64,000 nt of DNA from the IMG/VR virus record IMGVR_UViG_3300029258_003380, positions 1 through 64,000 of that record. One strand, given 5' to 3'. The notes under the pieces are model-generated. The model made no database searches and was not told the origin of the DNA. It saw only the letters and a program-made list of their open reading frames with translations. The stretch is from a virus. Each line of letters begins with the position of its first letter. Position 1 is the first letter of the stretch. A program made the position numbers and the translations under genes. This document shows, piece by piece, positions 26,822-29,580 of this stretch.

Positions 26822-26869
26822 GCGCCGCAGCCAGGCGTGAAGAGAAAGAACCAATGGGAGGAGACACCT

Positions 26870-27874
26870 ATGAAGGAAAAGTTTTGTGATAAGAAATTCA
26901 GAGAGACAACCCTGCAATTGATAGAAACATGTGCGGGGATCTTGGACGAATATCAGTCTGAAGGATACAAGTTGACGTTGCGTCAGTTGTATTACCGCAT
27001 AGTTGCGTTGGATTTATTCCCTGATGACAGGAGATGGCGTTGGGACCATGACCGCCGCAAATGGTACAGGGATCTCAATGGAACAAAAAACGCTCTACCC
27101 AATTACAAATGGCTTGGTGGAATAGTTTCTGACGCTAGAATGGCCGGATTATTTGACTGGGATATGATTGTTGATCGTGGTCGCGAGACCATAGAAAACT
27201 CACACTGGAGGCATCCTGGTGAGATTCTCAAGGACGCGAAGGCATCGTTCGGTATAGATAAATGGCGAGAACAGCCATGTCATGTAGAGGTGATGTGCGA
27301 GAAACAGGCGTTGGAAGGTATACTTGAGCCTGTCTGTCTTGAACTGGACGTTCCATTCTGTTCAAACAAAGGGTATTCATCGCAGAGTTTTATGTATCGA
27401 AAAGGCAAAGAACTAAGAATACACGCCGATAACGAAAAGAGTATTCATGTCCTATACTTTGGGGATCATGATCCGAGTGGTTTGGACATGGACAGAGATG
27501 TGGAGGAGCGTATCGGTTTGTTTTGTAACTATGAAGCATTTGGTGGTTATTACGAGTTGAAGCGAATTGCACTTACAATGCCGCAGATCGATCTCTACGA
27601 TCCTCCTGAGAATCCAGCGAAGCAAACAGACAGCAGATTCGCCGAGTACCAAAAGAGACACGGCGATTCCAGTTGGGAATTGGATGCACTTGAGCCAAAG
27701 GTTCTGGCTAGATTGGTGCGGAATTCTGTTGAAGATCTGCGTAACGAACAACTTTGGCAACAGGCGTGCGAAGATGAAGAAAATATGCGTTGTGAGTTGG
27801 AAGAAATATTCAAAGGATACAATCCTGCCAAGTGGTTTAAACTGTGGAAGAAAAGGTTGGAACTGGAAAGATAA
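26870..27874 (+). CDS. Spo11/TopoVI-A-like TOPRIM protein
   Basis: 334 residues; ATG 26870 follows GGGAGGAG. A winged-helix region with YKLTLRQLYYRIVA (34-46) and SDARMAGLFDWDMIVDRGRE is followed by a TOPRIM domain with CEKQALEG (Glu144) and LYFGDHDPSGLDMDRD (195-210), and a C-terminal part with QIDLYDPPENPAKQTDSRFA and WELDALEP. This is a recognisable phage family related to topoisomerase VI subunit A. No tyrosine can be assigned as catalytic with certainty. It may cut or bind DNA in repair or replication. Confidence 0.88.
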   Translation: MKEKFCDKKFRETTLQLIETCAGILDEYQSEGYKLTLRQLYYRIVALDLFPDDRRWRWDHDRRKWYRDLNGTKNALPNYKWLGGIVSDARMAGLFDWDMIVDRGRETIENSHWRHPGEILKDAKASFGIDKWREQPCHVEVMCEKQALEGILEPVCLELDVPFCSNKGYSSQSFMYRKGKELRIHADNEKSIHVLYFGDHDPSGLDMDRDVEERIGLFCNYEAFGGYYELKRIALTMPQIDLYDPPENPAKQTDSRFAEYQKRHGDSSWELDALEPKVLARLVRNSVEDLRNEQLWQQACEDEENMRCELEEIFKGYNPAKWFKLWKKRLELER

Positions 27875-27891: not shown

Positions 27892-28587
27892 ATGGTAGAG
27901 GCAGAAAAGAATGTATTGTTGGTGTCGATAACGACCGAACCTGGATGTTGTTTTGATGAAGGCGAATTCCTGCTGGCTATTTACAGTATCGAAGAAGGCT
28001 GGATTGGGGAGGAAGATTTTGATCTGGTTGACGAATGCGTAGTTGAGAACTTGTCTTCGGGAGACCTTCCTGAAGAGGGTTCAACATGTTTTAAATTAAC
28101 AGAAACCGGGGAATGGGAAGACGTCCGCTGGCTCAAGTACTACGAAATAACGGAGAGGCTTGGGGTGGCTAGCGAGGAATCTGGGTTGCTACTTGTTTCA
28201 GATGACAGCACTAGTAGTGAGAAAGAGAAAAAAACTATTGAGCGAGCCCAGAAAGAAATACTTCGGCTTCGTAAACTGATAAGAGAGGATCATCCTGGTA
28301 TCGGTCTGAGCAATATTGCCATGGCGCTTAGCGAACCGATGGAGTGTGGGCACCACGTGGACTGTCTCGATGACGATACAAGCGAATGTGGGTATTGTAA
28401 GGCGATAGCCGGTCGGGACGCGTTGCGCGAGGTCATGGAAGAGATCTCAATGACATCGACTTCTATGGCACCAGGATACAATGATGAAGTATCACATTAT
28501 CGGCAAATCGCGCTTAATCTCATCGGCAAAGGCACTTGCGCGATCATGGATGTATTTGGGGAGGAAGACGCGGGGGAAGAGGGGTAA
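27892..28587 (+). CDS. Hypothetical acidic protein
   Basis: 231 residues; ATG 27892 follows GGAGGG. An N-terminal globular part (VLLVSITTEPGCCFDEGEFL ... WLKYYEI) resembles the common phage DUF pattern for gene-edge proteins, followed by a helical segment (KKTIERAQKEILRLRKLIRE) and a Cys-containing C-terminal region (CGHHVDCLDDDTSECGYCKA). The stop overlaps the methyltransferase start (TAATG). Function unknown. Confidence 0.78.
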   Translation: MVEAEKNVLLVSITTEPGCCFDEGEFLLAIYSIEEGWIGEEDFDLVDECVVENLSSGDLPEEGSTCFKLTETGEWEDVRWLKYYEITERLGVASEESGLLLVSDDSTSSEKEKKTIERAQKEILRLRKLIREDHPGIGLSNIAMALSEPMECGHHVDCLDDDTSECGYCKAIAGRDALREVMEEISMTSTSMAPGYNDEVSHYRQIALNLIGKGTCAIMDVFGEEDAGEEG

Positions 28588-29183
28588 TGCGTGAGCTGGC
28601 ACTTTTCGCGGGCGCTGGTGGAGGAATACTTGGAGGCAAACTCCTTGGATGGCGCACTGTTTGCGCTGTTGAAATCGAACCATATGCCCGAGACATATTG
28701 CTGGCTAGACAGAACGACGGAAACCTTGAGCCTTTTCCAATATGGGACGATGTCAAAACCTTCGACGGCCGGCCCTGGCGAGGAATTGTTGACGTGGTTT
28801 CGGGAGGGTTTCCGTGCCAAGACATCTCATGCGCTGGAAAGGGCGCAGGTATCGAGGGAGAAAGATCTGGACTTTGGGGCGAAATGGCAAGAATTATCGG
28901 TGAGGTACGACCGCCGTTTGCATTTATGGAGAACGTTCCGTCACTTCGGTTACGTGGTCTTGCCGTGGTCATCGCGGACTTGGCCGGCCTGGGGTACGAT
29001 GCGAGCTGGTGTCGTGTATCGGCGGAGAACGTCGGAGCGCCCCATCGCAGGGACCGAATCTGGCTTGTTGCCCACTCCAACAAAGAGCGCGGCAAGCCAG
29101 GGACAGAATCAACCGGACGGAAAACGTGGGCAGACTCTAGTGGGAGCGGCCCGGGGGCAGACGTGGCCGACACCAAGAAATAG
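28587..29183 (+). CDS. Cytosine-C5 DNA methyltransferase, catalytic part (frame 1)
   Basis: 198 residues with canonical m5C motifs: I LFAGAGGGI (6-14), IV GGFPCQDIS with catalytic Cys77, VI MENVPS (114-119) and VIII APHRRDRIWLVAHS (151-164). It stops at 29181-29183 before any target-recognition domain or motif X. Those parts are found in the +1 frame, in the 28591-29580 ORF. So either two polypeptides assemble, or a +1 frameshift joins them, or an indel is present. The start overlaps the previous stop. Confidence 0.88.
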   Translation: MRELALFAGAGGGILGGKLLGWRTVCAVEIEPYARDILLARQNDGNLEPFPIWDDVKTFDGRPWRGIVDVVSGGFPCQDISCAGKGAGIEGERSGLWGEMARIIGEVRPPFAFMENVPSLRLRGLAVVIADLAGLGYDASWCRVSAENVGAPHRRDRIWLVAHSNKERGKPGTESTGRKTWADSSGSGPGADVADTKK

Positions 29184-29580
29184 TACTGGACTGGACAAAT
29201 CAAAGAGGCACTTGAATCTGCAAGGGGCAGTGAAGTTGTGGCCAACGCCGATCAAGACCGATGCACTCAAAAGGGGGAAGGTATCTCCACGTCCCGGAGC
29301 AATGGGATTATCCGAGACACTGGGAGGACAGTTGAATCCTGAATGGGTTGAATTGCTGATGGGTTGGCCGTTGAATTGGACGAGTATGATTCCAATGAAC
29401 AGGGAAGAATACGAAAGATGGCTCAGTACGATAGAAGACAGATTTGCAGACGATTCTTGGGAGGACGGCATCTCCAGAGTTACTAAAACAAAGGACAATA
29501 GTGTACAACGACTCAAGTGCTTGGGCAACGGACAGGTGCCGTTATCGGCGGCAGTAGCATGGAAGATACTCAAAGAGTAA
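28591..29580 (+). CDS. Cytosine-C5 methyltransferase C-terminal part, fully overlapping in +1 frame
   Basis: Open for 329 codons from GTG 28591. Its last third is a standard m5C C-terminus: WPTPRN and WPTPIKTDA, GGQLNPEWVELLMGWPLNW (245-263) and motif X RLKCLGNGQVPLSAAVAW (307-324). Upstream, LHLWRTF ... SSRTWPAWGTMRAGVVYRRR ... ESGLLPTPTKS also looks like the phage family segment between catalytic and C-terminal parts, yet the same bases encode motifs VI-VIII in frame 1. The true start is uncertain; only the part after about 29100 must be coding in this frame. Confidence 0.72.
   Translation: MSWHFSRALVEEYLEANSLDGALFALLKSNHMPETYCWLDRTTETLSLFQYGTMSKPSTAGPGEELLTWFREGFRAKTSHALERAQVSREKDLDFGAKWQELSVRYDRRLHLWRTFRHFGYVVLPWSSRTWPAWGTMRAGVVYRRRTSERPIAGTESGLLPTPTKSAASQGQNQPDGKRGQTLVGAARGQTWPTPRNSTGLDKSKRHLNLQGAVKLWPTPIKTDALKRGKVSPRPGAMGLSETLGGQLNPEWVELLMGWPLNWTSMIPMNREEYERWLSTIEDRFADDSWEDGISRVTKTKDNSVQRLKCLGNGQVPLSAAVAWKILKE

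Follow-up and report, generated by a model that had tools for sequence, protein, structure and literature searches.

To our knowledge, long overlapping genes on the same strand have rarely been demonstrated in bacteria and phages, and automated annotation usually keeps just one of the two frames. In the methyltransferase M.EcoHK31I, the coding sequence of the small subunit lies within that of the large one, in another frame; M.EaeI is of the same type.

M.EcoHK31I is a natural two-polypeptide enzyme in which both chains are needed, the large subunit carrying motifs I–VIII, motif X and the target domain (TRD), and the small subunit motif IX (PMC3404938). M.AquI is also naturally divided, with motifs I–VIII in a large subunit and IX and X in a small one, and single-chain enzymes split between motif VIII and the target domain yield fragments that complement each other in vivo (PMC3404938). 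An overprinted two-subunit methyltransferase is thus already known in M.EcoHK31I, and the locus described here combines an EcoHK31I-like long overlap with an AquI-like partition. Our literature search, which covered open-access sources, returned no description of this methyltransferase family beyond mentions of M.EcoHK31I and M.AquI. Three aspects may be new: how frequent the arrangement is among phages and prophages, the apparent shift of motif X from one frame to the other, and the presence of another +1 overprint on single-chain enzymes of the type found in Streptococcus phage MM1.

The locus lies in a window of 64,000 nucleotides, the whole stretch of DNA that was analysed, taken from the start of a 97,966-base IMG/VR virus record (IMGVR_UViG_3300029258_003380). 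As in M.EcoHK31I, the frame for the second polypeptide (beta) overlaps that for the first (alpha). However, the large subunit of M.EcoHK31I keeps motif X and the target domain, whereas alpha of the window stops after motif VIII, leaving motif X to beta; the M.EcoHK31I layout is matched instead by nested relatives of the window (Acinetobacter phage ABMM1 and more than 200 loci). Judged by motif placement, and for motif IX by pattern only, alpha would correspond to the I–VIII subunit of M.AquI and beta to its IX–X subunit. Unlike in M.AquI, beta overprints nearly all of alpha, and the alpha gene also specifies a stretch of about 200 residues at the N terminus of beta. We conclude that the overlapping genes, both on the same strand, very probably specify the two subunits of a DNA (cytosine-5) methyltransferase, which are made separately and pair into one enzyme.

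The alpha and beta reading frames

The original prediction, made from the DNA letters alone, described two reading frames open together over about 590 bases, the first with motifs I, IV, VI and VIII followed by a stop, and the second with the C-terminal part and motif X. Both frames lie where it had placed them (Table 1), and its paired readings are exact, DLAGLGYDA over TWPAWGTMR as well as VADTKK over WPTPRN just before the frame-1 stop. Beta is in the +1 frame relative to alpha, and this frame is free of stops across the entire alpha gene. The overlap comprises the first 197 codons of beta (about 60%) and, starting at the second codon of alpha, almost the whole of that gene. Beta then extends 397 bases beyond the end of alpha as a single-coding C-terminal part, over which the alpha frame contains four stops. 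On the other side, the TAA of the upstream open reading frame overlaps the alpha ATG (TAATG).

Table 1 Features of the overlapping methyltransferase genes in the window
Feature	Position	Strand	Description
Alpha ORF (frame 1)	ATG 28587 to TAG 29181-29183	+	198 aa, m5C catalytic half; PF00145, phrog_363 and M.HhaI matches
Beta ORF (frame 2)	GTG 28591 to TAA 29578-29580	+	329 aa; phrog_1008, tblastn, 72-sequence alignment
Dual-coding zone	28591..29183	+	593 bases; both frames open
Twin start ATGCGTG	28587..28593	+	Alpha ATG and beta GTG 4 nt apart
Alpha motif I LFAGAGGG	28602..28625	+	From translation
Alpha motif IV GFPCQDIS	28806..28829	+	Catalytic Cys codon 28815-28817; beta frame reads GFRAKTS; from translation
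Alpha motif VI ENV	28929..28937	+	From translation
Alpha DLAGLGYDA over beta TWPAWGTMR	28977..29004	+	Gly136 codon GGG at 28992-28994
Alpha motif VIII GAPHRRDRIW	29034..29063	+	From translation
Beta motif IX-like LNPEWVELLMGWPLNWT	29332..29382	+	Near-invariant columns in alignment A2 (72 sequences); alignment A4
Beta motif X block SRVTKTKDNSVQRLKCLGNGQVPLSAAVAWKIL	29464..29571	+	BLASTP to ABMM1 alpha C terminus

Alpha is recognizable as the catalytic half of an m5C methyltransferase. It matches PF00145 (3.6e-32; 112.5 bits, cut-off 22) over profile positions 2–168 of 324, which cover motifs I–VIII, as well as phrog_363 (5e-60) and, through a PDB sequence match, M.HhaI (1.4e-12). The motifs that define the catalytic domain are all present: I, IV (PCQ), VI (ENV) and VIII. 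It is not a complete one-chain enzyme carrying IX and X as well; the PF00145 match breaks off at 168 of 324, and the protein stops directly after motif VIII, without target domain, IX or X. The score against TIGR00675, 85.3 bits, falls under the cut-off of 100.65.

Beta gave no match in Pfam or NCBIfam. It belongs to phrog_1008, annotated 'DNA methyltransferase' (1.9e-25, profile positions 18–317 of 329), and its portion upstream of 29160, by itself, still matches this family at 5.1e-11. Separate profile searches thus return relatives for both frames, including the part of frame 2 for which a lack of homologues had been named as evidence against overprinting. The X block of beta aligns with the C terminus of alpha from Acinetobacter phage ABMM1 (BLASTP, 2e-8, 43% over 37 aa). 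By this sequence comparison, a homologous X segment occupies the beta frame in the window and the alpha frame in ABMM1 and the nested relatives. The other candidate, an IX-like helix motif with the sequence LNPxWVEWLMGWP, is near-invariant in beta (family consensus LNPxWVEWLMGWPxGWT), but a profile–profile comparison with three canonical single-chain IX–X C termini was not significant (E 0.16), so the label 'motif IX' is based on the sequence pattern and on the assignment published for M.EcoHK31I. A further indication comes from Mycobacterium phage Nyxis, whose beta aligns with positions 409–489 of phrog_116 (6.6e-9), right after the stretch matched by alpha (212–388). This supports a correspondence between the C-terminal half of beta and that of ordinary methyltransferases. 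An AlphaFold2 model of beta alone was poor (pLDDT 56, pTM 0.26), and a PDB fold search with this low-confidence structure returned no match.

Constraint on the two frames

Relatives of the pair are common. With beta as the query, tblastn matched 113 phage records; an alpha query hit the same sites in the best 12 of these at 60–75% identity, indicating that both frames of one stretch are conserved. In IMG/VR, relatives of beta were recovered at a minimum of 521 loci and relatives of alpha at 292, and a scan of one genome per species yielded 122 loci, of which 80 were kept, in groups including Pseudomonas, Acinetobacter, Burkholderia, Bradyrhizobium, Verrucomicrobia and Planctomycetota. Wherever beta was matched (256 of 256 loci), it overlapped alpha in the +1 frame, and the sole locus without beta, out of 257, encodes a single-chain enzyme. 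Most of the public records that we examined have just one of the two frames annotated, leaving a half-enzyme missing from many annotations, and methyltransferases labelled 'orphan' or 'truncated' may be complete two-subunit enzymes. Some annotators did note a nested open reading frame, as in ORF14 of MM1 and the 'g55 internal gene' of Paenibacillus phage Shelly.

We measured the openness of the +1 frame against a null in which synonymous codons were permuted within each alpha gene, keeping protein and codon usage. For alpha of the window, shuffling left the 155-codon stretch of the +1 frame with 4.0 stops on average, and this stretch was open in none of 1,000 shuffles. Over the whole gene, the longest open +1 run is 198 codons, compared with a null mean of 78 (P<0.001). 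Our test set comprised the window and 80 loci fetched with alpha only, which avoids selecting on beta. Across these 81 loci, the +1 frame was open over the catalytic domain (155 codons) in 79, where shuffling predicts 6.2, whereas the +2 frame was open in none and the antisense frames matched expectation. Neighbouring open reading frames served as calibration and behaved as a clean null: 0 of 139 were open (0.35 expected), with 7.39 stops on average compared with 7.15 in the null. The open +1 frame over alpha is therefore beyond chance.

The residues of beta are constrained as well. In the overlap, the window keeps 23 of 26 family-conserved beta residues (conservation of 80% or more across 71 other sequences), whereas shuffled genes keep 15.8 ± 1.8, with a maximum of 22 in 5,000. 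At alpha Gly136 (LGYDA), whose codon also supplies the G of TWPxWG in beta, 116 of 118 sequences use GGG. The number of changes inferred there is 2, compared with a mean of 32 at fourfold sites; GGG accounts for 14% of Gly codons overall. Two measures were less informative. The ratio d3/d1 and fourfold identity did not distinguish the overlap from another set of phage methyltransferases, the MM1-type enzymes, but these proved to be overprinted themselves, so this third-position-rate control failed and the neighbouring open reading frames took its place. Pairwise identity in the +1 frame was not counted as proof, since the +2 frame also exceeded its null (z 122 for +1 and 73 for +2) through shared ancestry. 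Together, these data strongly support overprinting. Hundreds of phages and prophages retain the double coding, with two frames open over 500–900 bases and products that appear to be complementary parts of one enzyme.

Layouts of the gene pair and the position of motif X

Alpha finishes with motif X (LKAIGNGQVP) in 218 of the 257 loci, and in these beta lies inside alpha, terminating after LNPxWVEWLMGWPxGWTDLKPLxxDKF. The window belongs to a smaller group of about 19 loci in which alpha ends directly or shortly after motif VIII, and beta contains motif X, downstream of the IX-like segment. This layout was also found in the independent contigs L015, L061, L101, L127, L130, L150, L151 and L219. 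Among the remaining loci, about ten are interrupted and others are cut off or unclassified. On the DNA, IX and X nearly coincide in different frames in nested relatives and are about 140 bases apart in one frame in the window, so a one-base change does not convert one layout into the other. The original prediction had mentioned neither the recurrence of the window layout nor the kinship with M.EcoHK31I and M.AquI.

When 88 catalytic domains of alpha were placed in a tree, the window fell among relatives with the nested layout, and the loci sharing its own layout were scattered. Parsimony places at least 10 layout changes on this tree, 3 of them forced by well supported branches. Motif X has thus likely switched repeatedly between the overlapping frames, although the poor resolution of the tree (6 of 85 inner branches starred) makes the number of switches unsure. 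This apparent movement offers a natural series for how an overprinted pair divides an active site. A broader proposition, that +1 overprinting is deep and widespread in phage m5C methyltransferases, with an old out-of-frame gene on the catalytic domain of split and some single-chain enzymes, repeated movement of motif X, and overlapping genes exchanging active-site parts by frameshift, seems to us about evenly balanced.

Several loci depart from these layouts. In L013, L030, L097, L110 and L153, a block resembling GRVAxGVxxRVDRLKAIGNGQVP, normally in the alpha frame, is found in the beta frame of an unusually long beta open reading frame; these hybrids are possible intermediates of motif X switching. 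The motif X of alpha reads IRNGQVP or IRNGQIP, not IGNGQVP, in L007 (Pseudomonas phage phPA-G), L009 (Vibrio phages), L128 and L133, a distinct subgroup whose beta ends with FEEWMMGWP. Interrupted alpha or beta frames were seen in L069, L114, L115, L124, L141, L142, L146, L200, L233 and L249, which keep motif X downstream in some frame and are decayed or mis-assembled copies.

Actinophages contain pairs that are likewise divided into an alpha with motifs I–VIII and a +1 beta with IX- and X-like segments: Nyxis gp78/77, Streptomyces phage RemusLoopin gp34/35 and Arthrobacter phage RedFox gp42/43. These differ from the window in that the genes are annotated as adjacent or barely overlapping and the beta frame enters alpha less far. 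In each case, the beta frame is open upstream of the annotated start, into alpha (L174:1769-2515 for Nyxis gp77, L173:1589-2485 for RemusLoopin gp35 and L262:1355-2263 for RedFox gp43), and this upstream frame carries a beta-like TFPTSGMTRNG motif in Nyxis and RedFox, less clearly in RemusLoopin. The annotated beta starts of gp77, gp35 and gp43 are probably too far downstream.

The single-chain enzymes of RB43 and MM1 share the catalytic domain of alpha but carry IX (LTPRECxRLQGFPD) and X in the alpha frame. No +1 overprint was found on RB43 or on a Mycoplasma phage enzyme. By contrast, MM1-type enzymes (L258 and L263–L341) carry a different nested +1 open reading frame, spanning codons ~46–155 and open in 68 of 68 sequences where 2.7 were expected; ORF14 of MM1 (L258:1268-1693) matches phrog_16143 and, weakly, phrog_1008.

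Proposed translation of the two frames and alternative readings

In the arrangement we propose, ribosomes would initiate twice, at ATG 28587 for alpha, with the AdoMet site, the catalytic Cys and motifs I–VIII, and independently at GTG 28591 for beta. The C-terminal part of beta would then supply target recognition together with the IX and X segments absent from alpha, and the two chains would associate into one enzyme that methylates phage DNA. From the M.AquI and M.EcoHK31I precedents, the complementation of split fragments and the alignment of Nyxis beta to phrog_116, we infer a heterodimeric m5C methyltransferase, and with it translation of both proteins, their assembly, a role of beta in target recognition and methylation activity.

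The original prediction had left open whether the locus is overprinted or produces a full-length enzyme by +1 frameshifting. The former is borne out by constraint and homologues, and the latter has lost ground. Since frame 2 is +1 of frame 1, a single shift near the alpha stop would give a 330-aa chain with motifs I–VIII, IX and X, making the upstream half of frame 2 incidental, and several relatives end alpha with TGA followed by C, a weak stop context. However, this context is apparently a by-product of a conserved Ser/Thr/Ala-Asp in beta, no common slippery site was found around the alpha stops of 16 loci, relatives with the layout of the window, and alpha is complete without a shift in most relatives (218 of 257 loci). 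The upstream part of frame 2 also has its own homologues, conserved residues and a conserved start. A beta start codon 4 nt after the alpha start is kept in 157 of 169 loci (ATG 142, GTG 15), usually as ATGaATGAGC, giving MNEL in alpha and MSW in beta. A beta-frame stop directly precedes the beta start in 135 of 169 loci, in part because ATGA contains TGA. In E. coli, closely spaced starts (AUGUG, GUGUG) are usable for two overlapping frames (PMC9841429), an analogy to ATGCGTG in which the spacing differs. With a conserved beta start, a complete alpha in most relatives and no shared slippery site, two separately initiated proteins are more likely than a frameshift fusion, which we regard as decidedly improbable.

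Separate synthesis leaves the question of whether beta is a subunit or an independent overprinted protein, such as a regulator or an anti-restriction factor. The latter would fit the absence of a Pfam match and of a confident fold, and MM1-type enzymes keep a nested +1 open reading frame despite their own IX and X in alpha, so a +1 product may do something other than provide these motifs. Yet in the window it is beta that carries the motif X that alpha lacks, the small subunit of M.EcoHK31I holds motif IX (PMC3404938), and Nyxis beta matches phrog_116 in its C-terminal portion; we therefore consider an independent beta unlikely. Still less credence, to the point of being highly improbable, goes to a dead or mis-sequenced gene, that is, one methyltransferase broken by an indel with a chance overlap. 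Alpha is indeed shorter than most relatives and is followed by stops in its own frame, and about ten relatives do have interrupted frames, but the openness of the +1 frame, the recurrence of the layout in independent contigs and the fact that a one-base change does not interconvert the layouts all speak against decay, as the original prediction had judged. A one-base sequencing or assembly error was rejected, given the independent contigs.

No restriction endonuclease was recognized among the scanned neighbours of the putative two-subunit enzyme, which is likely to be an orphan protective or regulatory methyltransferase. The one neighbour with a named family is a topoisomerase-like gene upstream of the methyltransferase (26837-27874; phrog_6247, 3.1e-92).
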